Source of the DNA: Chloroflexia bacterium SDU3-3
GTDB lineage: Bacteria > Chloroflexota > Chloroflexia > Chloroflexales > Roseiflexaceae
Assembly (NCBI GenBank): GCA_009268125.1
Contig: WBOU01000029.1
Span: 1 to 35,594 of the forward strand
Length of the DNA: 35,594 nucleotides
Reading direction: 5' to 3'
Under the pieces are notes generated by a model. The model ran no database searches. It worked only from the letters and a program-made list of their open reading frames with translations, and was not told the origin of the DNA. The position numbers and the translations under genes were made by a program. Positions within the stretch are counted from its first letter, which is position 1, and every line of letters begins with the position of its first letter. Positions 9,045 to 29,127 of this stretch are shown piece by piece.

Positions 9045-9733
9045 TCGCCCAGGATGATCTTGACTGCGATCGCCGTGTCGGTCAGATCTTCCAGCACGGC
9101 ATCGGCCCCAGCCTCGCGAAGCTGCTGGCTGGTAAACGCACCGGTGGCGACGGCGATGATGCGCGCGCCATTGGCTTTGCCGCAGGCCACATCGTTGGGC
9201 GTGTCGCCGATCACCACGATCTCCTGTCCGCTGAAGGTGCGCCCGTAGCGCGCGGCGGCCCGCTGCACGGCGAAGGGTACGAGCGCCGGGCGGTGGTGGT
9301 GGTCGCTGCCGTAGGCCCCGATCTCGATATCCAGGTAGTGATCTAGCCCAAAGAACGAGAGCTTGGCGCGGGCGCTATCCTTGATGTTGCCGGTGAGCAG
9401 AGTCTGCAGCACGTCGGGGGTCTGCTGCAGGTGTTGGAGCACCTCGCGCACGCCTGGCATCGGCCCGCCGCGCCGCGCATACTCCTCGCGGCGCGCGGAT
9501 AGCTCCTCCATGTAGATATCGATGAAGCCCGGCATCTGATCAAGCAGCGCGGCCTGGTCGTGGTCGGGGTAGGAGTTGAAGAGGATCTGGCGGTCGGTCA
9601 TGCCAGCGTAGGCGAAGGGCGCACCGGTGATCACGCCAAAGGTGCGCGTCATGGCCGCGCGCAGCGATTCGCCCGCCACGCCGCCGCTGCGGAGGATGGT
9701 GCCGTCGATGTCCCAGAGGATGAGGTGTTTCAC
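9041..9733 (-). CDS. HAD-family phosphatase (phosphoglycolate phosphatase-like)
   Basis: The 230-residue haloacid dehalogenase hydrolase has motif I WDIDGT (7-12, nucleophile D8 and acid/base D10), motif II LLTGN (112-116), a lysine region with K124, and motif III VIGDTPNDVACG (174-185, D177 and D181). The helical cap between motifs I and II (about 18-85) is that of the Gph/PGMB class. Substrate is unknown; phosphoglycolate or another small phosphate ester is typical. The start is GTG 9733 with GGAG at 9739-9742; longer frames would run through the terminator of the upstream gene. Coupling to rtcB by ATGA overlap suggests joint expression, though a link to RNA repair is only inference. Confidence 0.87.
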   Translation of the reverse strand: MKHLILWDIDGTILRSGGVAGESLRAAMTRTFGVITGAPFAYAGMTDRQILFNSYPDHDQAALLDQMPGFIDIYMEELSARREEYARRGGPMPGVREVLQHLQQTPDVLQTLLTGNIKDSARAKLSFFGLDHYLDIEIGAYGSDHHHRPALVPFAVQRAAARYGRTFSGQEIVVIGDTPNDVACGKANGARIIAVATGAFTSQQLREAGADAVLEDLTDTAIAVKIILGE

Positions 9734-14744: not shown

Positions 14745-16412
14745 TCAGTGCTCGCCAGCGAGCATGCGCTGTGCGGCCTGCTGGGCCTGGGCCAGGGTGG
14801 CCTGCCCCAGCTGCTCCTTGGTGGAGGGGATGGCGGCGGGCACCATGGACAGCTCGTCAAGGCCGAGGCCGGCCAGGGCCAGGGCGGCCTCGGGGTCGGC
14901 GGCCAGCTCGCCGCACAGGCCGATGGGGATGCCTGCGGCGTGCGCGGCCTGGGCGGCCAGCTGGATGAGGCGCAGCACGGCGGGGGACTTGTGGGTGTAG
15001 CGGGCAGCCAGCGGCGACTGCCCGCGATCGGCGGCCATGGCGTACTGGGTCAGGTCGTTCGAGCCGACGCTGAAGAAGGCGGCCTCGCGGGCCAGGATGT
15101 CGGCGGTGACGGCGGCGGCGGGGGTCTCGATCATGATGCCCACGGGCAGATCGGCGCGGTGGGCGATGCCCTCATCGGCCAGGCTCTGGGCGGCGGCGCG
15201 CAGGCGGGCCTTGCCCCAGCGCAGGTCGTCGAGCGTGGCGACCATGGGCAGCATCACCCACAGGTCGCCGTGGGGCGCGGCGCGCAGCAGGGCGCGTAGC
15301 TGGGTGTGGAACAGCAGCGGCTGGGCCATGCATAGGCGCAGGGCGCGCACGCCTAGGAAGGGGTTTTCCTCGTGGGGCATGGGCAGGTAGGGCAGGGGCT
15401 TGTCGCCGCCGATGTCGAGCGTGCGCACCACCACGGTGCCGCCCTCCATGGCTTCGAGCACCGCGCGGTAGGCATGGTACTGCTCGTCCTCGCTGGGCGC
15501 GCTGGCGCGGTCGAGGAACAGGAACTCGGTGCGGAACAGGCCCACGCCCTCGGCCCCGCTGGCGCGGGCGGCCCGGGCCTCGTCGGGGCTGCCGATGTTG
15601 GCCCACAGCGCCACGGGCGTGCCGTCGGCCAGCTGGCCGGGCTGGCCGCGCAGGGCGCTCTGGCGCGCGGCGGCGGCGGCTAGCTCCTCGGCGCGCTGGC
15701 GGTAGCTGGCCTGCTGCTGTGGGGTCGGGTCGGCGATCAGGGTGGCCGCGCCGCCGTCGAGGATGAGCGGGGTGCCGGGGGCGATGCCCAGCAGCCCTGG
15801 CCCAAGGCCCACCGCCGCCGGGATGCCCAGCGAGCGAGCCAGGATGGCGGTATGGCCGGTGGGGCCGCCGTAGGCGGTGGCGAAGCCCGCCACGCTGCCG
15901 CCGCGCAGCCCGGCGGTCTGGGTCGGGGTCAGGTCATCGGCCAGGATGATCGCGCCGGGGGGGATGTCGGCCTGGGCCTGCTGGCCGCCGATGGCCAGCA
16001 GGATCTCTTGGCCCACCGCGTCCATATCGGCGGCGCGCTCGCGCAGGTAGTCGTCGTCCAGCGCCTCAAGCGTGGCGCGCATGGCGGCGGTGGTCTGGCG
16101 CACGGCCTGCTCCAGCGGTGCCTGCTCGTCGTTCACCAGCCGCGCCACCTCCTCGCTCAGGAAGTCGTCCTCGACCAGCAGGGCCTGGGCGTCGAAGATG
16201 CCCGCCTCCTGCTCGTGGCCCCCGTCGCGGAACTGCTGGGCCAGGGCGCGCAGGCGCTCGGCGGCGCTGGCGCGGCCCTGGGCGAAGCGCGCGAGCGCGG
16301 CCTGGGGGCTGGCGTCGGCGGGCGCGGCGGGCGCGGCCTGGGCGGCCAGGTGGGCCGCAGGGCCCAGCGCCACCCCTGGCGCGCCGCCGACCCCGGTGAG
16401 CGTGTGTGGCAT
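14745..16412 (-). CDS. ptsI: PTS enzyme I (phosphoenolpyruvate-protein phosphotransferase)
   Basis: The 555-residue protein is a full-length enzyme I, which takes phosphate from PEP and passes it to HPr. The phospho-histidine is H187 in GGPTGHTAILARSLGIPA (182-199). PEP-site motifs follow: GLFRTEFLFLDR (291-302), VVRTLDIGGDKPLPYL (328-343), EENPFLGVRALRL (348-360), MIETPAA (427-433), FSVGSNDLTQYAMAADR (447-463) and LCGELAAD (499-506) with catalytic C500. The start ATG 16412 has GGGGAG 8 nt upstream and lies 4 nt after the HPr stop; a TTG at 16427 in frame is rejected. It is last in the glp-dha cluster and probably serves DhaM rather than sugar uptake, as no EIIB/EIIC gene is present here. Confidence 0.96.
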   Translation of the reverse strand: MPHTLTGVGGAPGVALGPAAHLAAQAAPAAPADASPQAALARFAQGRASAAERLRALAQQFRDGGHEQEAGIFDAQALLVEDDFLSEEVARLVNDEQAPLEQAVRQTTAAMRATLEALDDDYLRERAADMDAVGQEILLAIGGQQAQADIPPGAIILADDLTPTQTAGLRGGSVAGFATAYGGPTGHTAILARSLGIPAAVGLGPGLLGIAPGTPLILDGGAATLIADPTPQQQASYRQRAEELAAAAARQSALRGQPGQLADGTPVALWANIGSPDEARAARASGAEGVGLFRTEFLFLDRASAPSEDEQYHAYRAVLEAMEGGTVVVRTLDIGGDKPLPYLPMPHEENPFLGVRALRLCMAQPLLFHTQLRALLRAAPHGDLWVMLPMVATLDDLRWGKARLRAAAQSLADEGIAHRADLPVGIMIETPAAAVTADILAREAAFFSVGSNDLTQYAMAADRGQSPLAARYTHKSPAVLRLIQLAAQAAHAAGIPIGLCGELAADPEAALALAGLGLDELSMVPAAIPSTKEQLGQATLAQAQQAAQRMLAGEH

Positions 16413-16416
16413 GGCG

Positions 16417-16689
16417 CTACTCCCCAAAGTTGTCCTGGATGAGCTTCACGAGCGCTGCGACCGCCGCATCCTCATCGTCTCCCTCGGCGCGGATGACCAC
16501 GTGGTGGCCGGTCTTCACGCCGATCTGCAGCAGGTTGAAGGCGCTGATGGCCACCGCCTTGGTGCTGGGGCGGTCGAGGTTCTGGATGGTGATCTTGCTG
16601 GTAAACTGGCGGGCGGCCTGCACGAAGCTGGCGGCAGGGCGGGCGTGCAGCCCGACGGGATGGGCGACGGCGACAGTTGCTTCTTTCAT
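16417..16689 (-). CDS. HPr phosphocarrier protein (dedicated type, no Ser46)
   Basis: The 90-residue HPr has the phosphocarrier motif HPVGLHARPAASFV (10-23) with active-site H15 and R17. The usual regulatory block KSIMG around Ser46 is replaced by STKAVAISAFNLLQIG (42-57), with Val at position 46, so phosphorylation by an HPr kinase is not expected. This fits an HPr used only as an intermediate between EI and DhaM. It is 8 nt downstream of dhaM and 4 nt upstream of ptsI, so the three are one transcription unit. The ribosome site is poor (A-rich), which may mean coupled translation. Confidence 0.95.
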   Translation of the reverse strand: MKEATVAVAHPVGLHARPAASFVQAARQFTSKITIQNLDRPSTKAVAISAFNLLQIGVKTGHHVVIRAEGDDEDAAVAALVKLIQDNFGE

Positions 16690-16697
16690 TTTTTCTT

Positions 16698-17087
16698 TTA
16701 CCCCTGCACTTTCACAAGCTCGCGGCCCTGCAGCGCGGCGGCGGCGGCCTCGGCTAGGCTCGCGCCGCTGGCGGCCTCCACCCCGGCCAAAAACGCGCCC
16801 TCGACGATCGGGCCGTCGCTGATCTGCACCGGCACGCCGCTGTACATCTCCAGCGCGGTCTCAAGTGCGATCACCGCGCCGGAGAGATCGACTAGGGCCA
16901 GGATACCCTCGGGCGACTCGGCCTCGCGCAGGCCATCTAGGATGCGGTCTACGCTGGTGCCAAGCCCACCATCAGTGCGCCCACCGGCTGCGACGATTTT
17001 AATCTGGTTGTGTGTTGCTTGCCCGACAAATTCTTGGATACCCTCAGCAAGCTTGGCGCTATGAGAGACGATGAGCAGGCTAACCAT
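16698..17087 (-). CDS. dhaM: PTS-dependent dihydroxyacetone kinase phosphotransferase subunit DhaM (EIIA domain only)
   Basis: The 129-residue protein is an EIIA-mannose-type domain. VSLLIVSHSAKLAEGI (2-17) carries the phosphorylatable H9, followed by AAGGRTDGGLGTSVDRI, the DhaM form of the GTD segment, and SGAVIALETALE. DhaM receives phosphate from HPr and rephosphorylates the ADP permanently bound to DhaL. Here it is EIIA alone, as in lactococci, while the enterobacterial DhaM is an EIIA-HPr-EI fusion; the next two genes supply the missing parts in the same order. ATG 17087 with AGAGGA upstream is a better start than the longer frame. Two hairpins separate it from glpC. Confidence 0.93.
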   Translation of the reverse strand: MVSLLIVSHSAKLAEGIQEFVGQATHNQIKIVAAGGRTDGGLGTSVDRILDGLREAESPEGILALVDLSGAVIALETALEMYSGVPVQISDGPIVEGAFLAGVEAASGASLAEAAAAALQGRELVKVQG

Positions 17088-17105
17088 AGGCGTTCCTCTT
17101 TTTCT

Positions 17106-17177
17106 GCCGCGCGCCAATAGCAGAAAAGGGCGCGCGGCTCACACAGGGATGGTGCTGCGCGGGGCTGGCCGCGCAGC
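17106..17177 (-). promoter_or_regulatory. Two tandem hairpins between glpC and dhaM
   Basis: GCCGCGCGCC (17106-17115) pairs with 17129-17138 over 10 bp, and GCTGCGCGG (17154-17162) pairs with 17169-17177 over 9 bp. Neither has a T-tract on the minus strand, so they are more likely RNA-processing, stability or attenuation elements dividing glpABC from the PTS genes than full terminators. Confidence 0.5.
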
Positions 17178-17197: not shown

Positions 17198-18469
17198 CTA
17201 GCTGTAGGCCTCGCGCAGGATCTCGATCGGGTGCTTGCTGGCCACGCCGCTGCCGTGGGTGATCTGCCAGCGGCAGGTCTCCGAGTCGCACAGGGCCTCA
17301 TCGCTGCCGCTCTCGCGCACGAAGTCGAACAGCGGCTTGCCCACATCCATACCGATCTGGTACTTCTCCTGCTTGAAGCCGTAGGTTCCGGCGATCCCGC
17401 AGCAAGCGGCGGTGCTGTCGGTGATCGTCAGGCCGGGGATTAGCTCCATGATGTCGAGCGCGGGCTTGCCGATGCGGTGGGCGCGCAGCTGGCAGGGCGC
17501 GTGGTAGGGCAGGCTGCGCTCGATGGGCTTGAAGTTGGTGTTCAGCTCGCCCTTCTCGTGCAGCATGCGCAGGAACTCGAAGATATCGTAGGTGTTCTCG
17601 GCCACGGCGCGCACCGGCTCGGAGTGCAGGCCCAGCAGCTCGGGGGCCTCCTCCTTCAGCGTCAGCGTGCAGCTGGTGCTGGTGCCCACGATTGGGATGC
17701 CCTTCTGGACGTAGGGGTAGAGCTTCTCGACGTTGTAGTCGTGGTACTTCTGCGCGTCGGGGAAGGCCCCGTTGGAGAGCAGCGGCAGGCCGCAGCAGCC
17801 CTGCTCGGCCACGATCACCTCGTAGCCGTTCAGCTCTAGCACCTCGATGGCGGCCTTGCCCACGTGCGGCTCGTAGTAGTTGGTGGCGCAGCCGTGGAAG
17901 AAGACCACCTGTTTTTTTGCGCTGGCCGTGGGCGCGGCGGGCGTGGGGCTGCCGCCCTCCTGGGCTTGCCTGCGGCTGCGGCGCTTCACCCACGAGCGAA
18001 AGGTGTAGGTGCTGAAGGGCGGGAAGGGGGCCTTGCGTGCCACGCCGAACAGCTTCTCGGCCACATAGCGGGCCGGGCCGAAGTTGGCCGCGAAGTTGGC
18101 CAGCGGGGCCTGCGGGCCGCTGCCCAGCACGCCGATGATGTCGGAGTGGCCCAGCATCAGGTTGCGCAGCGGCAGGCCCTTCTCCTCCACGATCTTGGCG
18201 CGGGCGCGGGCGTTCAGCTCGGCGATGCGCACGCCGGTGGGGCAGACCTGGTTGCACACCCGGCAGCCCGAGCAGTAGTCCACCGACTCGTCGGGGGTGG
18301 GCTGGCCGGCCTGGCGGAAGCGCTGGGCCTGCGGCCCCACGTACTTGGGGCCGGGGAACTTGTCGGTGACGGCGCTGACGGGGCAGGCCGACGCGCAGAT
18401 ATTGCACTTGATGCAGTGGTCGAGCGACTGCTCAAGCGACAGCTCGATCAGATCTATCGTATGTTCCAT
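17198..18469 (-). CDS. glpC: Anaerobic glycerol-3-phosphate dehydrogenase subunit C (Fe-S, CCG domains)
   Basis: The 423-residue protein has two four-cysteine ferredoxin clusters at the N-terminus: C19/C22/C25/C29 and C66/C69/C72/C76 (CSGCRVCNQVCP). Two CCG-type domains follow, marked by GCATNYYEPHVG with EQGCCGLPLLSNG, and by YHAPCQLRAHRIG with AACCGIAGTYGFK. In GlpABC this subunit anchors the GlpAB dimer at the membrane and passes electrons to the quinone pool. A variable Ala/Pro linker lies near 170-190. ATG 18469 has AGGAAA upstream. It is the third gene of glpABC. Confidence 0.94.
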   Translation of the reverse strand: MEHTIDLIELSLEQSLDHCIKCNICASACPVSAVTDKFPGPKYVGPQAQRFRQAGQPTPDESVDYCSGCRVCNQVCPTGVRIAELNARARAKIVEEKGLPLRNLMLGHSDIIGVLGSGPQAPLANFAANFGPARYVAEKLFGVARKAPFPPFSTYTFRSWVKRRSRRQAQEGGSPTPAAPTASAKKQVVFFHGCATNYYEPHVGKAAIEVLELNGYEVIVAEQGCCGLPLLSNGAFPDAQKYHDYNVEKLYPYVQKGIPIVGTSTSCTLTLKEEAPELLGLHSEPVRAVAENTYDIFEFLRMLHEKGELNTNFKPIERSLPYHAPCQLRAHRIGKPALDIMELIPGLTITDSTAACCGIAGTYGFKQEKYQIGMDVGKPLFDFVRESGSDEALCDSETCRWQITHGSGVASKHPIEILREAYS

Positions 18470-18510: not shown

Positions 18511-19746
18511 CTAGAGCAGGCTCTGGGCTGCCGCGTAGCCGGTGGCCAGGGCCAAGCCGCTGTAGCAGCGCTCGCGAACAGGGTCAGCGCCTGCAAGCGC
18601 CGCGCCAGCAACCGCGACATTTTCATACACCACCTGCCCACCATCGATCGGGCGGAAGCGCGTATCTACCGCCACCCCGGCCTGGAAGATCGGGTGGCCC
18701 GTCGGGTCGAGGAAGCGCGGCGAGAACCACTGGCCGCGTCCCTGCGGTGCCAGGATGGGCAGGCCCAGGGCGCGCTCCCAGACCTTGCCCTCGGGGTCGC
18801 TCCAGACCCCGCCGCCGCCCACGCCGCCGGTGGCCAGCACGAACTGCTGTGCGCTGTGCTGCTGCTGGCGCGCGGCGGCCTCGCTGTAGATATGGCGCAG
18901 CTGCTGGCCCTCGCCCTCGGCGCGCTCCACGAACGCGCCCAGCTGCATGCGCCCGCCCGCCGCCGTGATCGCTCTGGCGAAGATCTCGGCCAGGCGCATG
19001 CCGGGGACGGATGCCGGAACGGTGGGGATCTCGAAGATTAAGGCTCCGGCCTCGCGCTGAAGGTCGGCCACCACGGCCATGGGGTCGTGCAGGCCCAGCA
19101 CGGCGGGCAGGCCGATGCGGGTGGCGTCGCCCTTCAGCTTGCGCAGCTGCTGGCCGATCTGCGCGCGCCACTCGGGGCGGTCGAACAGCAGGGCGAAGCT
19201 GCGGGTGTTGAAATCGAGCGTGCGCCCGGTGGATGCGGGTAGATCCAGGTAGACGCCCTGGGCGTCGTGGCCCTGCTCGCGCAGGTTGGCAGCGATCATG
19301 GGCGGGAAGAAGTCGCGCAGCTGGCGGAACCCGGCGATCAGCGTCTTGCCGCCCTGGCGCATGTCGCCCGCCGCCATGGTGGCGGGGAACAGCGCCGCCG
19401 GGCGCAGCGCGCCGATGGCGGTGGGCAGCAGCACGTTGCGGTCAAGCCCGCCCACGTAGGGGTAGCGGGCGGCCTCGACCAGCGCGCGGAAGCGCTCGAT
19501 GGCGGACTCGACCTGGGCCACACCCACGCGGGCGTAGGGGTGCTCGGGCCGACCGGCGATCAGGGCCTCTAGGGCCTCGCGCAGGGTCTGGTCGCCCACC
19601 GCGCCCCAGATGTCGATGGTGCCGGGTGTCCAGTGGGTCGCGCCCTGGCCCTTGGCCAGCACGAGCGGCCTGCGCCCGGCCTCGGCGAGCTGGAGCGCGG
19701 CCATCAGGCCCGAGAGGCCAGCGCCGATAACAATAGTGTCTCGCAT
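18511..19746 (-). CDS. glpB: Anaerobic glycerol-3-phosphate dehydrogenase subunit B
   Basis: The 411-residue flavoprotein has an N-terminal dinucleotide fold DTIVIGAGLSGLMAALQLAE (3-22), then GQGATHWTPGTIDIWG (33-48), typical of GlpB. Near the C-terminus it has ATGGVGGGGVW and a FRPIDGG...NVAVAGAALAGAD FAD-closing segment. GlpB works with GlpA in moving electrons from glycerol-3-phosphate to GlpC. It lies between glpA (57 bp) and glpC (41 bp). The ribosome site is weak (GAGATAG before CCTATG). Confidence 0.92.
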   Translation of the reverse strand: MRDTIVIGAGLSGLMAALQLAEAGRRPLVLAKGQGATHWTPGTIDIWGAVGDQTLREALEALIAGRPEHPYARVGVAQVESAIERFRALVEAARYPYVGGLDRNVLLPTAIGALRPAALFPATMAAGDMRQGGKTLIAGFRQLRDFFPPMIAANLREQGHDAQGVYLDLPASTGRTLDFNTRSFALLFDRPEWRAQIGQQLRKLKGDATRIGLPAVLGLHDPMAVVADLQREAGALIFEIPTVPASVPGMRLAEIFARAITAAGGRMQLGAFVERAEGEGQQLRHIYSEAAARQQQHSAQQFVLATGGVGGGGVWSDPEGKVWERALGLPILAPQGRGQWFSPRFLDPTGHPIFQAGVAVDTRFRPIDGGQVVYENVAVAGAALAGADPVRERCYSGLALATGYAAAQSLL

Positions 19747-19803: not shown

Positions 19804-21447
19804 TTATGCGTTGTCGTACTCGGTGGCGATCGCGGCGTGCTTGGTGACCACGCCCTCGCCCGCCTGGCTGTTCTCGCCGCCGGGGGGCAGCAGGTCGACA
19901 CCCAGCGTGTCGAGGTACATGATCTCGTCGAGCCGAGCCTGGCGCAGCTGGTCTGCCCACATCACGGCGGTCAGGCCCTTCCAGCGCTCCTGGAGGAAGT
20001 GGCGCAGCAGCGCGCCCGAGAGCGAGACGCTGGAGGAGCCACCCTCGGCCTGCTGCGCGGCCTTCTGCTCTTCCCAGAGGGCCACGGCGCGGAAGGTGCA
20101 GAAGCCGCCCTGGCACGGCCCCATGCCCAGCCGGGTGTCGCGGCGGATGTCGTCGATGTTGCGCGCCCCGGCCTGGATAGAGGCCAGCACGTCGCCGCGC
20201 GTCACCAGCTCGCACTCACAGATCAGGTCGCCGTAGGTGTCGTCGCGCTCGATCTGGGCCAGCCGCTCGCCCTTGCGGTGGAAGTGGCCGGCTTGGTTGT
20301 GGGGCAGGATCTCGCCTGCGGTGCGGCAGGGCTGGGTGTTGCCCAGCTTCTTGGCGATTGCGTCCACCGCCTCCTCGGCCATCATGCGGTAGGTTGTCCA
20401 CTTGCCGCCCACGATCGACATCAGGCCCTCCACGCCGTCGCGCTGGCTGTGGTCAAGCAGCTTGTAGGTGCGGCTGATGTCGCGGTCGTCGGCCACATCC
20501 TGGTCTTTGTAGAGCGGGCGGACCCCGGCCCAGGCGCGCAGGGCGCGGTAGGATGTGAAGTTGGGCACCAGCTTCGCGCCCTCCTCCATCATCAGGGCCA
20601 CCTCGTCGGGGTCGATGCCGTAGACATCGGGGTCGGGCACGTGGCGGTCGGTGGTGCCGATCACGGCCACGGTGTGGGCAGGCACGATGATGTCGCCGTC
20701 GGCGGGCATCTTGCAGCGGTTGATCACAGTGTTGACCATGCGGTGGTTCATGGCCACCATCACGCCCTTGCCGGGCACCACGGTCACCTTCACCCCGGCC
20801 ATGCCTGCGATCTTGCCCGCCCACGCGCCTGCGGCGTTCAGCACATAGGCCGCCTCGATCCGCTTGTGCTCGCCGGTGCTCAGGTCTTCCACCACCGCGC
20901 CCACCACGCGGTCGCCCTCGCGGATGAGGTCCACCACGGCGTGGTAGGGCAGGGCCTGCGCGCCGTAGTGCTTGGCCGAGAGTACGTTCAGGTCGGTGGC
21001 CAGGAACGAGTCGGCGGATGCGTCGTTGACCTCGAAGGCGCGGCTGATGCGCGGGTTGAGCGCTGGCTCGCGGCGCAGCGCCTCGGCCACGCTGATCTCC
21101 TCGCAGGCCACGCCGGTCTTGCGGCAGCCTTCCAAGAAGGTGTCGCCGTAGCTCGGGTCATCCCAGGGGGTGGCCACGAAGAAGCCGCTGGTATCCTCGA
21201 TGCAGTGCGGCATGATCGTGCGCAGGATCTTATTTTCCACCGCGCACTCGTGGGCCGACTGCGGGTCTTTTACCGCGTAGCGCCCGCCGCTGTGCACCAG
21301 GCCGTGGTAGCGGCCCGTGGTGCCGTGGGTCATGTCGCCCTTCTCGACCAGCACGGCGCGGATGCCGCGCATGGCCAGGTCGCGCAGGCAGCCAGCGCCG
21401 GTCGCGCCGCCGCCGATGACAAGCACTTCGGTTACGATCGTTTGCAT
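19804..21447 (-). CDS. glpA: Anaerobic glycerol-3-phosphate dehydrogenase subunit A with BFD-type [2Fe-2S] domain
   Basis: The 547-residue protein oxidises glycerol-3-phosphate to DHAP with FAD. The FAD motif VLVIGGGATGAG is at 8-19. RYHGLVHSGGRYAVKD (46-61) and VGGKWTTYRMMAEEAVD (346-362) are typical of the DAO/GlpA/GlpD fold. The C-terminal part holds the BFD-like domain with C410/C412 (ICECELVT) and C445/C450 (GMGPCQGGFC), which distinguishes GlpA from aerobic GlpD. Length is close to the E. coli protein. The start is ATG 21447, since longer frames lack family similarity. It begins about 260 bp downstream of the G/C homopolymer block. Confidence 0.95.
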   Translation of the reverse strand: MQTIVTEVLVIGGGATGAGCLRDLAMRGIRAVLVEKGDMTHGTTGRYHGLVHSGGRYAVKDPQSAHECAVENKILRTIMPHCIEDTSGFFVATPWDDPSYGDTFLEGCRKTGVACEEISVAEALRREPALNPRISRAFEVNDASADSFLATDLNVLSAKHYGAQALPYHAVVDLIREGDRVVGAVVEDLSTGEHKRIEAAYVLNAAGAWAGKIAGMAGVKVTVVPGKGVMVAMNHRMVNTVINRCKMPADGDIIVPAHTVAVIGTTDRHVPDPDVYGIDPDEVALMMEEGAKLVPNFTSYRALRAWAGVRPLYKDQDVADDRDISRTYKLLDHSQRDGVEGLMSIVGGKWTTYRMMAEEAVDAIAKKLGNTQPCRTAGEILPHNQAGHFHRKGERLAQIERDDTYGDLICECELVTRGDVLASIQAGARNIDDIRRDTRLGMGPCQGGFCTFRAVALWEEQKAAQQAEGGSSSVSLSGALLRHFLQERWKGLTAVMWADQLRQARLDEIMYLDTLGVDLLPPGGENSQAGEGVVTKHAAIATEYDNA

Positions 21448-21758
21448 AGGGTACGCCTTTGTTTGTTGCGAATGAGCGCGCAGCATCCTAGCGCGGCGGG
21501 CGCGTGCCTCGTCGCCATCGGCGGCCCGTGTTGTGTGTGGCTGCGCTTGCTCGTGGTCGTGGTGATGCGGTAAAGAAGATATGCCGAGAAAATGTAAAGG
21601 GAAGGAGGTCGAGCGCCCGTAAGACAAAGGGTGGGCGCTCGGCCAAATCCGCATAAGGAAGACAACGCGGGCGCAATCGTGCGCTCTTTCTGCTTTTGCC
21701 TACTGGCGGGGGGGGGGGGGGGGGGGGCCCCCCCCCCCCCCCCCCGCCGCCGTACCGC
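21448..21758. other. glpK-glpA intergenic region with hairpin, no gene
   Basis: These 311 bases contain no supported gene. An 8-bp inverted repeat (GAGCGCCC 21611-21618 with GGGCGCTC 21633-21640) could fold in the leader of glpA, and a homopolymer palindrome lies at 21708-21745. I see no clear promoter for glpA on the minus strand, though the size of the gap suggests that one or an RNA element is present. Confidence 0.6.
21708..21745. repeat. G20-C18 homopolymer palindrome
   Basis: Twenty G (21708-21727) are followed at once by eighteen C (21728-21745). This is a self-complementary block with no loop sequence. It may be a real extreme hairpin, or an assembly join of a contig ending in poly-G with one beginning in poly-C, as can arise from two-colour sequencing chemistry. 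Confidence 0.95.
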
Positions 21759-23255
21759 CTACTCGACCCAGTCGAAGGTCTTGGTCACGGCCTTCTTCCA
21801 CTGGCTATAGAGCGAGTCGCGCTGGTCGGCGCTCATCTTCGGCTCCCAGGTCTTCTCGATCTGCCAGTTCTGGCGCAGGTCGTCGGTGCTCTTCCAGAAG
21901 CCGGTGGCCAGGCCCGCCGCGTAGGCCGCGCCCAGCGCGGTGGTCTCGGCCACCTTGGGCCGCACCACCGGCACGCCCAGGATGTCGGCCTGGAACTGCA
22001 TCAGCGTCTCGTTGGCCACCATGCCGCCGTCCACCTTCAGGGCCTTCAGATCCACGCCCGAGTCGGTGTTCATGGCATCCAGCACCTCGCGGGTCTGGAA
22101 GGCGGTGGCCTCCAGCACGGCGCGGGCGATGTGGCCCTTGTTGACATAGCGGGTGAGGCCAGCGATCACGCCGCGGGCGTCGGATCGCCAGTAGGGCGCG
22201 TACAGGCCCGAGAAGGCCGGCACGAAGTAGGCCCCGCCGTTGTCCTCCACGGTCTTGGCCAGCTCTTCGATCTCGCCGCTGTTCTTGATGATGCCCAGGT
22301 TGTCGCGCAGCCACTGCACCAGCGCGCCCGCGATCGCGATCGAGCCTTCCAGCGCGTAGACTGGGGCCTGGTCGCCGAACTTATAGCCCATGGTGGTGAG
22401 CAGACCGCTCTTCGAGGGCACCATCTCGTTGCCGGTGTTCAGCAGCATGAAGCAGCCGGTGCCGTAGGTGTTCTTGGCCTCGCCGCTGCTGTAGCATGTC
22501 TGGCCCACCAGCGCGGCCTGCTGGTCGCCCAGGATGCCCGCCACTGGGATGCCGCCGATCACGCCCACCGCGTTGCCGTAGACCTCGCTGGAAGAGCGGA
22601 TCTCGGGCAGCATCTGGCGCGGGATGCCCAGCGCATCCAGCATGTCGTCATCCCACTGCAGCGTGGCGATGTTCATGAGCATGGTGCGGCTGGCGTTGGT
22701 CACGTCGGTGATGTGCACGCCGCCGTTCGGCCCGCCGGTGAGCCACCATGTCACAAAGGTGTCCATGTTGCCGAACACCGCGTCGCCGCGCTCGGCGGCC
22801 TCGCGCGCGCCCGGCACGTTGTCCAAGATCCAGCGGATCTTGGGGCCGGAGAAGTAGGTCGAGAGCGGCAGGCCGACCTTCTCGCGGAAGCGATCCTGGC
22901 CGCCCTCGCGGGCCAGATCGTTGCAGATCTGGGTGGTGCGGGTGTCCTGCCACACGATCGCGTTGTAGAGCGGTCGCCCGGTGTTCTTGTCCCACACCAG
23001 CGTGGTCTCGCGCTGGTTGGTGATGCCAACCGCCGCGATGTTGTCGATGTTAATGTTCCCCTTGCGCAGCGCCCCGTCAACCACATCGTTGGTGCGTGTG
23101 CGGATCTCGTTCGGGTTGTGCTCGACCCAGCCGGGCTGCGGGTAGATCTGCTCGTGCTCTTTCTGATCGACGCAGACGATATTGCCGCCGTGGTCGAAGA
23201 TAATGCAGCGTGTGCTGGTGGTACCCTGATCGATTGCCGCCACATACTTTGCCAT
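21759..23255 (-). CDS. glpK: Glycerol kinase
   Basis: The 498-residue FGGY kinase phosphorylates glycerol with ATP to sn-glycerol-3-phosphate. Marks are [18 protein letters not shown] (4-21), [10 protein letters not shown] (42-51), [14 protein letters not shown] (77-90), [11 protein letters not shown] (97-107), [27 protein letters not shown] and KVDGGMVAN. The segment after SSEVYG (223-228) lacks the His that PTS phosphorylates in Firmicute GlpK, so HPr-dependent activation is not expected despite the nearby PTS genes. ATG 23255 has a perfect AAGGAGGT. It lies between dhaL and glpA in the cluster. Confidence 0.97.
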
Positions 23256-23285
23256 AGATGACCTCCTTGTCATTGTGGGTGAGCA

Positions 23286-23359: not shown

Positions 23360-23998
23360 CTACGCGCCCTGCGCCAGGGTCTCGGCCAGCACCTGCGACA
23401 TATAGAACGCCGATGTCGCGCCTGGGTCTTGGTGCCCGATGCTGCGCTCGCCTAGGTACGAGGCGCGGCCTTTGGTGGCCAGCATCGGGATGGTGTCCTT
23501 CATGCCCTGCTCGACGGCGGCCAGGGCCTGGGCGGTGGCCTCGTGGGGGGGCACCCCGCTGGCCAGCGCAGCCTTGAGCGCGTCGATGCCGGGTGCGATG
23601 GCGTCCACCATGGTCTTCTCGCCGCGCTGGGCCTTGCCACGGGCGATAATGCCCTCCAGCGCGGCGTCGAGCGCCACCACCAGCTCGTTCTCGCTGATCT
23701 CGTAGCGGTCGGCCAGGGCCATACCGGCGCGCATGTAGGCGGTGCCGTACAGCGGGCCGGATGCGCCGCCCACGGTGGAGACCAGGGTCATACCAGCGGT
23801 CTTCAGGATGGTCCCGATGTCTTTGTCGGCCACGGTGGGCAGCTTGGCCACCACGGCGGCGAAGCCACGGTCGAGGTTTGCGCCGTGGTCGGCGTCGCCA
23901 ATCGCCGAGTCGAGCTGGGTCAGCTCGTCGCGGTGCTGGCTGATGCGCGCGGCCACCCCCTCGATGTAGCGGATGATCATGTCGGCAGTGATCTGCAT
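23360..23998 (-). CDS. dhaL: Dihydroxyacetone kinase subunit DhaL (ADP-binding)
   Basis: The 212-residue protein matches bacterial DhaL throughout. [18 protein letters not shown] (29-46) supplies the Mg-nucleotide ligands D30, D35 and D37. [12 protein letters not shown] follows in the middle, and [14 protein letters not shown] and [21 protein letters not shown] lie towards the end. DhaL holds ADP as a cofactor that is rephosphorylated by DhaM and passes phosphate to DHA bound on DhaK. GGAGGA lies before ATG 23998. The 168 bp between dhaK and dhaL hold no gene. Confidence 0.97.
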
Positions 23999-24166
23999 GT
24001 GTTCTTCCTCCGAGACGTAGGGAAGAGAAACCGGAAGCTCTACTCTATCACATCCGCCTGGCGCGGTGGTCGGATCTGCCGCGGCAAGATCGCTGCGGCG
24101 CGGCCTCGCGGGCCTCCGGCGCTCTTCCCCCCTCATCCCCTCCATGCCCTCCGCCGCGCGGCGATC

Positions 24167-25168
<1,002 letters not shown>

Positions 25169-25206: not shown

Positions 25207-25926
25207 CTAGCCTGCCAGCGCGCGGAACAGCACGCCGCCCAGCACCGCGCCGATGATCGGGCCGACCACCGGGATCCACGCGTACTCCCAGTCGGAGCTG
25301 CCCTTGCCTGCGATCGGCAGGATGGCGTGCATGATGCGCGGGCCGAGGTCGCGGGCGGGGTTCAGGGCGTAGCCGGTGGGGCCGCCCAGGCTCAGGCCCA
25401 GCGACCAGATCAGCATGCCGACGAGGTAGGTGTTCAAGCCTGGGGTTGCGCCGCTGACCGCCTTGCCGATGGCGCTGACGATGAAGATCAGGCTGAAGGT
25501 GCCGATGATCTCGGTGATCAGGTTGGCCACCGGGTTGCGGATGGCCGGGCCGGTGCTAAATACGCCCAGCTTCGCGCCCTTGTCCTCGGTGATCTCCCAG
25601 TGGGGCAGGTAGGCCAGCCACACCAGCAGCGCGCCCAGCATCGCGCCCAGGAACTGCGCCACGATCAGCATCACGCCGTTGCCAATGTCGGCACCGGCGG
25701 CAAACCAGCCCTGGATGATCCCGGCGGGGTTGAGCGAGCCAGGCCCGCCGAAGGCCGCCGAGACAAACGCGCCACACATGACCGCAAAGGCCCAGCCAGC
25801 GGTGATCACGATCCAGCCTGCGTTCTGTGCTTTCGACTTGTTGAGCAGAACTGCCGCCACCACCCCATCGCCAAGCAGGATGAGCACCATGGTTCCAAAC
25901 AGTTCGCCTAAGAATCCTGCGGGCAT
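25207..25926 (-). CDS. glpF: Glycerol uptake facilitator (aquaglyceroporin)
   Basis: The 239-residue MIP-family channel has six membrane helices and two pore half-helices. The first NPA motif is in GSLNPAG (64-70, N66) and the second in YALNPARDLGPR (186-197), where the D after NPAR marks glycerol facilitators rather than strict water channels. It lets glycerol, and probably DHA, diffuse in for trapping by GlpK and DhaKLM. GAGGAGG precedes ATG 25926. It is the first structural gene of the operon, with a predicted promoter about 360 nt upstream. Confidence 0.96.
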   Translation of the reverse strand: MPAGFLGELFGTMVLILLGDGVVAAVLLNKSKAQNAGWIVITAGWAFAVMCGAFVSAAFGGPGSLNPAGIIQGWFAAGADIGNGVMLIVAQFLGAMLGALLVWLAYLPHWEITEDKGAKLGVFSTGPAIRNPVANLITEIIGTFSLIFIVSAIGKAVSGATPGLNTYLVGMLIWSLGLSLGGPTGYALNPARDLGPRIMHAILPIAGKGSSDWEYAWIPVVGPIIGAVLGGVLFRALAG

Positions 25927-26292
25927 CGTCGTCCCTCCTCACATCAATGCTTCAGAGCACGGAAGTCTCAAGGTTTCGGAAATCGCCATTGATCGCCAAG
26001 AAGAATCCAGTCGCGCGAGCGGCGCACAGAGACAGCGGCCCCCTTTCTACGTACTGCGACGATGTGCCGATCATGGGTGCGCCAGACGACGCATGGCAGC
26101 GCTCCCTTGCGCTTTATTGAAGGGATCGTTTGGTTCGGCGTTAGGGTAGTGGGGGAAGAAGCAGACAGGCGCAAGAAGATAGGGCTATCATCTTGAACGG
26201 GCGCTCCATCGCACAACTACCTGGCTCTGATCGTGAAACCAGATATACCGTCGCAAAGATCAAACCTTCAGAAGGTGTTGCTGTCTGCCTTT
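25927..26292 (-). promoter_or_regulatory. Long leader of the glpF operon with possible closing stem
   Basis: No gene is supported here. On the minus strand the predicted transcript would begin near 26286 and run about 360 nt to glpF. Its 5' end GCAGACAG (26288-26281) is complementary to CTGTCTGC (26168-26161), which could close a structured domain of roughly 110 nt. No classical terminator with T-tract or known riboswitch core is recognised. Confidence 0.4.
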
Positions 26293-26320
26293 ATGCTACC
26301 ACGCTGCGAATCCTTGTCAA
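26293..26320 (-). promoter_or_regulatory. sigma70-type promoter of the glpF-dha-glp operon
   Basis: On the minus strand a perfect TTGACA (26320-26315), a 16-bp spacer and TAGCAT (26298-26293) form a promoter with a strong -35 and poor -10, a common design for activated promoters. The predicted start is near 26286. Confidence 0.6.
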
Positions 26321-26351
26321 TAGAAAAACTGGACGTGGTTGCAGCCTGGCC

Positions 26352-26379
26352 TGTTTCAATAGTGAAACATATTGTTTCA
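26352..26379. promoter_or_regulatory. Candidate DhaR operator: TGTTTCA-N4-TGAAACA plus third half-site
   Basis: A perfect palindrome of TGTTTCA (26352-26358) and TGAAACA (26363-26369) is followed by another TGTTTCA (26373-26379) that overlaps the dhaR stop codon. Palindrome centre and extra half-site lie about 75 and 90 bp upstream of the predicted glpF start. An activator site is likely; assignment to DhaR is inference from position. Confidence 0.6.
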
Positions 26380-28350
26380 ATGTTTTGACTGCCACAGCAG
26401 GTCGCGGTCCAGGGCGTAGCGGCGCATCTTGCGCCAGAGCGTGGCGCGGCTGATGCCCAGGCGCTCGGCGGTGCGGCCCAGGTGCCCGCCCGACTCGTGG
26501 TAGGCCCGCACGATCGCCTCGCGCTCGGCCAGGGCGTGGTGGTCGTGCAGGCGGGCGGGGGCGGGCGCGCCGTGGGGCGCGTGGCTGGCCACGGCGGCGG
26601 GCAGGTCGTCGAGCGTCAGCACGCTCTTCTCGCTCAGGTGCAGCAGCCGCTCCAGCAGCGTCTCTAGCTCGCGCACATTGCCGGGCCAGGGGTAGGCCCG
26701 CAGCGCGGCCAGGGCCTCGGGGGCCAGCAGGGTCTGCTTGCCCAGCCGCCGGTTGATCGTGGCCAACATGTGGCTGGCCATCAGCAGGATGTCGTCGCCG
26801 CGCTCGCGCAGCGGCGGGATGCGGATGGAGAGCACGCCCAGCCGCAGCAGCAGGTCGGCGCGGAACCGGCCATCGGCCACCTCGGCGTCGAGGTCGCTGG
26901 GCGTTGCGGCGATCACCCGCACATCCAGCGGGATGACGCGCCGCCCGCCCAGCCGGATGATGTGCCCGGTCTCGATCGCGCGCAGCAGGCTGGTCTGGGC
27001 CTCGGGGGTGAGCGCGCTGATCTCCTCAAGCAGCAGGGTGCCGCCCTGGGCCAGCTCCAGCCGCCCGGGCCTGCCCTCGGCGGGGCCGCGCTGGGCGGGG
27101 TCGCTGGCATGCTGGCCCTCGTAGCCCACCAGGTCGCCCAGCAGCAGCGATCGCGGCACGGCGGCGCAGTTCAGCACGATAAACGGCCCGCCGCTGCGCG
27201 GGCTAGCGTTGTGCAGGGCGTGGGCGAACAGCTCCTTGCCCACGCCCTGTTCGCCCTCCAGCAGCACCGGCGCAGGCGAGAAAGCCGCAGCGCGGGCGTG
27301 GCGGATGGCATCCTGCATCGGGGCGCTCTCGCCGATGATGTCGGCGAAGGTGAAGCTGGCCTGCGCCCCCACCACCTGCTGCACCAGGCGCTGCACGCTC
27401 TCGGGTGGGCGCAGGGTCAGCAGCGCACCGCGGTAGCGCCGCCCGCGATCCCAGGCGGGGCGCAGGTTGCACAGCACCACCAGCGGCCCCTTGCGGCCCG
27501 CCAGCTGCAGCTCTTGGTCGGCCAGCTCGTGCCGCCGCTCAAGCGCATCGCGCAGGTTGGGGGGCAGGGTGATCAGCTCGTCGAGCCGCCTGCCCATCTG
27601 CCGAGCCGTGATGCCGAGCATCTGGCTGGCGCGCGTGTTGATCTTGCCCACGCAGCCCTGGGCATCCACAAAGATCAGGCCCTCGCTGATCGCCTCGACC
27701 ACGGCGTTCAGCTCGGCCAGATGCTCGTTGGTCTCGGCCAGCAGCAGGTTGTTGCGCTCCTGGGTGTGGATGGCCTGGGCGGCGGCGATCACCATGCCTA
27801 GGGTGTGGGCGTGGGCCGCGCCGCTTGGCCCCAGCACGCCCAGCACGCCCACCGCCTGCCCATCCACATCGAACAGCGGGGCCGCCGAGCAGGCCAGCGC
27901 GTGGTAGGCCCGGCGGTAGTGCTCGGCACCGCTGGTCTGGCAGGGCGCGGCCTCGGCCAGGGCGAGGTTCGCGGCCATGGTGCCGATGCGCTGCTCGGCC
28001 CAGCTGGTGCCCGGCCCCAAGCCCAGCGCGGCGATCTGCTCGACCATGGGCGCGTCGCCGATCAGGTCGATCATGGCTAGCGCGGCGTTGTGCAGCATCA
28101 CCGCGAAGCCGGAACCCTCCATGAACTGGTAGAGGTCTTCCATGGATGGGCGGGCCAGGGCGCACAGCTCGTCGTCGGCGGCGCTGTGCGGCGCGGCTGG
28201 CTGCGCGGCCAGCGCCGCCTCGGCGGGCACCCCGGCGGCGGCGCTGCGCTCCCACGAGCGCAGGATGGGCGGCGCGAGGTGGAGCCCGGCGGTGCTGCCG
28301 GTGGCCAGAAAATGCTGCCAGGCCGCATGGCTCATGTGTAAACTATTCAT
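26377..28350 (-). CDS. dhaR: DhaR/AcoR-type transcriptional activator (GAF-PAS-AAA+-Fis) without GAFTGA
   Basis: The 657-residue regulator starts with the class-typical ILRSWERS (29-36). A GAF-like sensor (about 60-205), a PAS-like domain (about 212-320), an AAA+ domain (about 335-565) and a Fis-type helix-turn-helix (about 617-645) follow. Walker A is EGEQGVGKE (365-373); Walker B is TLLLEE (438-443), with Glu in place of the first Asp. The sigma54-contact GAFTGA is missing: between GYEG (409-412) and GRLELAQGG the loop has unrelated sequence. In E. coli, DhaR activates a sigma70 promoter and is controlled by DhaK and DhaL, and a similar logic is likely here. The gene ends 450 bp upstream of glpF in the same direction and is divergent from an ANTAR regulator. 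No good ribosome site precedes ATG 28350; ATG 28335 is an alternative. Confidence 0.9.
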   Translation of the reverse strand: MNSLHMSHAAWQHFLATGSTAGLHLAPPILRSWERSAAAGVPAEAALAAQPAAPHSAADDELCALARPSMEDLYQFMEGSGFAVMLHNAALAMIDLIGDAPMVEQIAALGLGPGTSWAEQRIGTMAANLALAEAAPCQTSGAEHYRRAYHALACSAAPLFDVDGQAVGVLGVLGPSGAAHAHTLGMVIAAAQAIHTQERNNLLLAETNEHLAELNAVVEAISEGLIFVDAQGCVGKINTRASQMLGITARQMGRRLDELITLPPNLRDALERRHELADQELQLAGRKGPLVVLCNLRPAWDRGRRYRGALLTLRPPESVQRLVQQVVGAQASFTFADIIGESAPMQDAIRHARAAAFSPAPVLLEGEQGVGKELFAHALHNASPRSGGPFIVLNCAAVPRSLLLGDLVGYEGQHASDPAQRGPAEGRPGRLELAQGGTLLLEEISALTPEAQTSLLRAIETGHIIRLGGRRVIPLDVRVIAATPSDLDAEVADGRFRADLLLRLGVLSIRIPPLRERGDDILLMASHMLATINRRLGKQTLLAPEALAALRAYPWPGNVRELETLLERLLHLSEKSVLTLDDLPAAVASHAPHGAPAPARLHDHHALAEREAIVRAYHESGGHLGRTAERLGISRATLWRKMRRYALDRDLLWQSKH

Positions 28351-28530
28351 TGCTATGTGTTAGGAAATAGCCGCTGGGCGAGCGCGCGTTGCGCAATGGC
28401 AGCACGTTCTGGAACGCGGAAAGAACGGTTTATCTTGGCTATGATCTGTGGTATCATAACGCATTATTGGATGATATCATGCTCCACACTGCTGGCAAGG
28501 CTCGCCTGTCGTTCAGTGTTAAGGAAACAT
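28351..28530. promoter_or_regulatory. Divergent dhaR / ANTAR-regulator promoter region
   Basis: The 180-bp gap contains CGTTCTGGAACG (28405-28416), a short palindrome that could be an operator, and ATGATATCAT (28471-28480). A weak plus-strand candidate is TTTATC-N17-TATCAT around 28429-28457. No TGTTTCA element of the glpF type is present. Confidence 0.35.
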
Positions 28531-29127
28531 ATGGCAGCAACACGCATTCTCGTCGCCGAAGACAACGATCTGGTCGCGCTTACCCTGGAAGAGCAGCTCA
28601 AGGGCCTCGGGTATGATGTGATCGGCGTTGCCCGCACTGGCGCCGAGGCTATCGAGCTGGCATCCCGCCTGACCCCCGATGTTATCATCATGGACATCCG
28701 CATGCCCGAGGTCGATGGCACCGAGGCGACCGCCCGCATCAACGCGCAGCACCCCACGCCGATCATCATGCTCACCGCCTACACCGACCGCGAGACCATC
28801 CGCCGCGCCGAGAACGCGGGCGCGCTGGGCTACCTAGTGAAGCCGGTGAACGAGGTCGAGCTAACGCCCGCGATCAACATCGCGCTGGCCCGCTTCCGCG
28901 AACTGCAGGATCTGCGCTCCAAGGTTGACGAGCTTTCCGAGTCGCTAGAGGCCCGCAAGGTCGTCGAGCGCGCCAAGGGCATCCTGATGCAGCGCCTGGG
29001 CCTGAGCGAGCGCGACGCCTACGAGCGGCTGCGCCACCGCGCCCGCGACAAGCGCGCCAAGATGAAGGATATCGCCCAGGCGATCATCGAGGCCGAGGAG
29101 CTGCTTGGCCCATCGTCGGCATCGTAG
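28531..29127 (+). CDS. ANTAR-domain response regulator (RNA-binding antiterminator type)
   Basis: The 198-residue protein has an N-terminal receiver (1-120) with acidic pocket E10/D11, phosphoacceptor D55 in IIMDIRMPEVDG, T82-A83 and K104 in LVKPV. A coiled segment (122-143) joins it to a C-terminal ANTAR domain (about 143-192; VVERAKGILMQRLGLSERDA then RLRHRARDKRAKMKDIAQ). ANTAR proteins bind dual-hexaloop hairpins in nascent RNA and prevent termination. No cognate histidine kinase is next to it. ATG 28531 has AAGGA upstream. Being divergent from dhaR, it may act on this region, but its RNA target is unknown. Confidence 0.93.
   Translation: MAATRILVAEDNDLVALTLEEQLKGLGYDVIGVARTGAEAIELASRLTPDVIIMDIRMPEVDGTEATARINAQHPTPIIMLTAYTDRETIRRAENAGALGYLVKPVNEVELTPAINIALARFRELQDLRSKVDELSESLEARKVVERAKGILMQRLGLSERDAYERLRHRARDKRAKMKDIAQAIIEAEELLGPSSAS

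Follow-up and report, generated by a model that had tools for sequence, protein, structure and literature searches.

The window analysed here, that is the whole stretch of 35,594 nucleotides from Chloroflexia bacterium SDU3-3, carries on its minus strand a gene for a DhaR-like regulator and, downstream of it, an operon in the order glpF-dhaK-dhaL-glpK-glpA-glpB-glpC-dhaM-HPr-EI, where glpB, glpC and dhaM stand for glpB-like, glpC-like and dhaM-like genes (Table 1). The glycerol operon closes with genes for a split dhaM-like EIIA, HPr and enzyme I (14745-17117, minus strand), as if this PTS chain served the dihydroxyacetone kinase, and no second member of the family of the dhaM-like EIIA domain was found in the genome. 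The gene divergent from dhaR (28357-29127, plus strand) codes for a response regulator that has an ANTAR RNA-binding domain.

Table 1. Genes of the glycerol operon and elements of its predicted control region, in positions of the window.
Feature	Position	Strand	Remarks
dhaR-like regulator	26377..28350	-	GAF, PAS, AAA+ without GAFTGA, Fis-type HTH (GISRATLWRKM)
extra half-site TGAAACA	26373..26379	-	3 bp upstream of the palindrome: TGAAACA-N3-TGTTTCA-N4-TGAAACA
DhaR operator palindrome (predicted), TGTTTCA-CTAT-TGAAACA in glpF direction	26352..26369	-	exact match, kept in relatives
-35 element TTGACA	26315..26320	-	31 bp downstream of the palindrome
-10 element TAGCAT	26293..26298	-	16-bp spacer; TAnnAT-type hexamer at the equivalent place in most relatives
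predicted transcription start of the glpF operon	26286..26286	-	inferred, about 7 nt past the -10
glpF-like aquaglyceroporin	25207..25926	-	first gene of the operon
dhaK	24167..25168	-	TIGR02363 above cut-off
dhaL	23360..24145	-	TIGR02365 above cut-off; annotated start may be too early
glpK	21759..23273	-	
glpA-like anaerobic glycerol-3-phosphate dehydrogenase subunit	19804..21654	-	
glpB-like FAD protein	18511..19746	-	name inferred from position and domain
glpC-like iron-sulfur protein	17198..18469	-	
dhaM-like EIIA-man domain protein	16698..17117	-	
HPr	16417..16689	-	
PTS enzyme I	14745..16427	-	

The best-scoring NCBIfam family of the regulator is DhaR (NF008485), with 497.7 bits; because this value lies below the curated equivalog cut-off of 551, and strict equivalog status is therefore not reached, we call the protein DhaR-like. 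Its build is that of DhaR, with a GAF/PAS sensory part, an AAA+ domain and a Fis-type helix-turn-helix, and the dihydroxyacetone kinase genes are its neighbours and predicted targets. The GAFTGA loop is absent, since in the alignment VGYEGQHASDPAQRG stands where GYEKGAFTGA is expected, and it is likewise missing in E. coli DhaR and in the aligned relatives; E. coli DhaR has been considered sigma70-dependent on the grounds of this missing loop (PMC3162934). The genome of the window encodes RpoN, and its only other clear Fis-type enhancer-binding protein (EBP) possesses GAFTGA and has an unrelated recognition helix. In the same genome, rpoN was also seen at most 3 kb from a GAFTGA-bearing EBP of the response-regulator type (G000:C16, L023, L035).

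The first-pass annotation of this DNA had described, upstream of glpF, a TGTTTCA-N4-TGAAACA palindrome with a third TGTTTCA and, farther downstream, a perfect TTGACA followed after 16 bp by a weak -10, and each of these elements was found again. Read on the minus strand toward glpF, the half-site TGAAACA is followed by the three bases ATA, the palindrome, 31 bp, TTGACA, 16 bp and TAGCAT; the centre of the palindrome, recomputed, falls near -75 relative to the predicted start near 26286, in agreement with the distance of about 75 bp given before. The reported overlap with the dhaR stop codon holds for the third half-site, whose first three bases are the TGA at 26379-26377, but not for the palindrome itself. 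As to the idea that the control region begins in the last codon of its own activator, the overlap is there but seems to be fortuitous, since at other loci as many as several hundred bp separate the site from dhaR, or the two lie far apart on the chromosome.

We then considered how unusual these repeats are in the window and in its genome. TGTTTCA occurs four times in the window against 0.85 in shuffled sequences, none of 100 shuffles reaching four; three of the four copies are those of the operator, while the fourth is solitary at 9726. The 454-bp intergenic stretch contains two perfect 7-bp inverted repeats against 0.3 in shuffles. There is, as had been stated, no second copy of the palindrome in the window, where it is the sole site at three mismatches or fewer; shuffled windows give 0.18 such sites and, because 17 of 100 possess at least one, this mildly improbable result is suggestive but not decisive. 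In the genome of 6.76 Mb there is one exact copy of the palindrome, and at two mismatches or fewer there are 9 genomic sites against 0 for the reversed control. Those at L002-L004, elsewhere in the genome, have no tested glp or dha neighbour and no -35 geometry and were set aside as chance occurrences.

By itself, then, the sequence is mildly unusual, and it is the comparison among genomes which settles its reading as a predicted operator. We searched 158 genomes of the class for DhaR and found it in 30; in 26 of these 30 loci a palindrome with a spacer of 4 or 3 bp is present beside dhaR or upstream of glpF. The first-pass annotation had made its proposal depend on the conservation of the palindrome in relatives and, on scanning, it proved to be kept class-wide upstream of glpF. 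Counting as operators the 32 palindromes of the class which have a 4-bp spacer and are assigned to glpF or dhaL, the distance from the palindrome end to the -35 is 29-31 bp in 31, at glpF and dhaL promoters alike, and the lone exception (L058) has a gap of 19 bp, one helical turn (11 bp) closer. The conserved promoter at this fixed distance is TTGACR-N16-18-TAnnAT, the -35 of glpF in relatives being TTGACA, TTGACT or TTGACG with a spacer of 16-18 bp, and the information content is highest at both half-sites and at the -35. A site upstream of the -35, at a fixed helical position and with its centre near -75, is the arrangement of a class I sigma70 activator. Two further loci of the phylum with DhaR (L089, L090) had no site at two mismatches or fewer.

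Nearness to the coding end of dhaR is ruled out as the reason for the conservation, because unlinked glpF and dhaL genes keep the palindrome. In three genomes (G032, G034, G057) glpF is not linked to dhaR or lies far from it, and the palindrome stands upstream of glpF (L061, L063, L073) with a gap of 30 bp; five genomes of genus g12 have an unlinked dhaL with a palindrome of its own (L062, L065, L067, L080, L081), also with a gap of 30 bp, at promoters where TTGATC or TTGATT precedes a TAGNAT-type -10. Across the 158 genomes the exact pattern has 26 places, 21 of them upstream of glpF (16) or dhaL (5), against 2 places for the reversed control pattern. No tested glp or dha gene adjoins the exact sites of G063:C156, G069, G082 and G109, which also lack the -35 geometry and were attributed to chance (G063:C400 is outside the comparison).

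The third half-site recurs as well. TGMAACA begins exactly 10 bp before the palindrome in 15 of the 32 operators and lies at 20-22 bp in 13, and no other upstream offset has as many; in genus g12 the upstream half-site is absent. Being one helical turn away, it would probably strengthen binding through a second DhaR contact.

On these grounds we consider it very probable that the palindrome and its extra half-site serve as operator for the DhaR-like protein whose gene lies immediately upstream, and that the promoter of the glpF operon is of the sigma70 type and activated by DhaR. The same proposal, made before from the letters of the window, is now supported by conservation and by unlinked copies, and also by co-occurrence with DhaR and by an E. 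coli counterpart, both described below. Instead, the main effect of the bound protein could be to repress, or to form a roadblock for transcription that continues from dhaR into glpF, as E. coli DhaR is annotated as a dual regulator and the site lies between two co-directional genes. However, a centre near -75 places the site upstream of the promoter and not over it, the promoter distance is unchanged where no dhaR reads in (L061, L063, L073 and the dhaL sites), and the TTGACG elements and 18-bp spacers of relatives suggest promoters in need of an activator; we give repression or a roadblock only a slight chance. The chance is slighter still that DhaR works as an ordinary EBP at a sigma54-dependent enhancer site serving a -24/-12 promoter, a reading to which the build of the protein, the presence of RpoN and a palindrome of the TGT-N12-ACA kind seen for enhancer-binding proteins (PMC6615313) would lend themselves. 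Against it, none of the aligned DhaR proteins has GAFTGA, the best -24/-12 score is no higher than in shuffles (p 0.71) and the element found at the fixed distance is the one with TTGACR and TAnnAT hexamers; with neither a -24/-12 site above shuffles nor GAFTGA, a sigma54 promoter was rejected.

We compared the predicted operator with the dhaK promoter of E. coli which, read toward dhaK, contains TGTTTCA-CTA-TGAAACA and, 31 bp upstream, AGTTTCA-ATA-TGGAACA; this E. coli operator (TGTTTCACTATGAAACA) may already have been published. The half-sites TGTTTCA and TGAAACA are common to both, and the two proteins have in common their domain build, the lack of GAFTGA and targets of the dhaK type. In E. 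coli, however, the spacer is 3 bp, while it is 4 bp in the window and throughout the DhaR clade to which the window belongs; E. coli has a divergent dhaR-dhaK region with two palindromes at a distance of 31 bp, while the window has one palindrome and a half-site; and the target operon of the window, unlike dhaKLM, is headed by glpF and includes glpK and glpABC. The operator is of a kind known in principle, and this variant is distinguished by its 4-bp spacer, its additional half-site, a strict promoter distance of 30 bp and an operon headed by glpF. Spacers of 3 bp were also found at L009-L011, L057 and L091-L095, commonly in pairs 29-32 bp apart, of which the nearer site lies 15-17 bp and the farther one 45-49 bp from a -35.

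In a maximum-likelihood tree of 42 DhaR proteins, where the rows of L036, L050 and L054 were labelled from unlinked glpF sites, all loci with a 4-bp spacer fall in one clade of 30 rows (support 100/99), and E. coli and all the 3-bp loci fall outside it. A single change of the spacer from 3 to 4 bp is therefore likely on this tree, in which neither the root nor the long branch of E. coli is placed with certainty. The spacer is not set by a single residue of the recognition helix, a possibility ruled out by the occurrence of ISRTTLWRKM with N4 but ISRTTLWRRL with N3. We lean towards the view that in one DhaR clade the operator was rebuilt as a whole, the spacer passing from 3 to 4 bp and, in the class of the window, the pair of palindromes about 32 bp apart (15-17 and 45-49 bp before the -35) being replaced by one palindrome at 30 bp from the -35, with half-sites one turn apart; regulator, operator and promoter distance would have changed together once, with the target pathway kept. 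Promoter distance and spacer need not have changed at one moment, and they possibly did so separately, because in family f30, within the 4-bp clade, the N4 palindromes upstream of dhaK are not in the 30-bp arrangement with a promoter.

We also evaluated whether the presence of the palindrome depended on the presence of DhaR. The exact site is present in 19 of 31 genomes with DhaR (the 30 mentioned above and G042, in which the end of a dhaR lies against a contig boundary), compared with 3 of the 127 that lack it. The Fisher p of 1e-13 is optimistic given the relatedness of the genomes, but the trend is clear, and the palindrome occurs essentially only with DhaR. The binding of DhaR is a prediction and AT-rich palindromes are common operators, and a different transcription factor might bind this one, the proximity of DhaR being coincidental. 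That reading is as improbable as the sigma54 one: dhaK is present in 75 genomes and the exact site in none of the 44 of these which have no DhaR, the E. coli dhaK promoter has the matching half-site, and spacer type agrees with DhaR phylogeny. Least probable of all is an RNA hairpin, such as a weak dhaR terminator, or a CRISPR-like repeat: the 7-bp stem can form (-4.7 to -6.8 kcal/mol) and the best Rfam match is a CRISPR repeat, but both were rejected on the lack of a U-run after the repeat, its single copy in the genome and an Rfam score of 22.3 bits, far under the threshold of 37, and the repeat is kept upstream of glpF and dhaL promoters without an adjoining dhaR.

If the site is the operator of DhaR, a dimer of the protein would bind TGTTTCA-N4-TGAAACA centred near -75 and would recruit or stimulate the housekeeping RNA polymerase, and transcription would then run from glpF through EI. 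In the enteric system DhaK is an antagonist of DhaR and unphosphorylated DhaL is its activator (PMC12821955). If the E. coli scheme applies here, the protein would be kept inactive by free DhaK and switched on by unphosphorylated DhaL once there is a supply of dihydroxyacetone, the likely signal being the phosphorylation state of DhaL as set by the supply of dihydroxyacetone. Every protein of the DhaK/DhaL relay, including DhaM, HPr and enzyme I, is encoded in the glpF operon.

Sites of the TGT-N10-12-ACA type, known for NifA, FhlA and several clostridial regulators (PMC6615313), resemble that of the window in the outer TGT and ACA, 11-12 bp apart, and in the Fis-type helix-turn-helix of the proteins; they act with sigma54 over distance, however, while the site of the window keeps a fixed distance of 29-31 bp to a -35 of the sigma70 type and its protein has no GAFTGA. 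Also comparable are TyrR, HupR and other relatives without GAFTGA (PMC3162934), in which the build of an enhancer-binding protein is likewise adapted to the housekeeping RNA polymerase. The ligands and targets of TyrR and HupR differ from those of the window's DhaR. To our knowledge, the operators of TyrR and HupR are not TGTTTCA-N4-TGAAACA. Working from sequence only, the analysis assigns to a DhaR-like activator a predicted operator, promoter and regulon (glycerol uptake via dihydroxyacetone phosphorylation), in a group on which little regulatory work has been done, and it suggests how proteins resembling sigma54 activators, which are poorly understood as a group, may work at housekeeping promoters. 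The passage from a 3-bp to a 4-bp spacer on a common half-site would offer a small natural example of how a regulator and its site change in concert.

Some observations concern the leader between promoter and glpF, which is roughly 340-770 nt long and in the window corresponds to 25927-26286. Nearly all the leaders of the 4-bp clade that were examined (the window, L006-L008, L037-L053 and L058) have, 100-440 nt ahead of the ATG, a sequence resembling GARAGGRGGTGA that is complementary to the tail of the 16S rRNA and is followed by no obvious start codon; the copy in the window is of the weakest kind (GTAGAAAGGGGGCC). A structured RNA in the window's own leader is unsupported (z +1.3). In genus g12 this leader (about 270 nt before glpF) has about 80% identity in 8 genomes, unlinked copies included (L041, L043, L044, L045, L051, L053, L061, L063), and an Rfam search of it (L043, L045, L053) gave no match there; its predicted fold is multibranched with 65 pairs, 6 of which have changes on both sides. 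Near the dhaR locus of a relative, a SAM riboswitch scores above the gathering threshold at L010 (314-493, minus strand).
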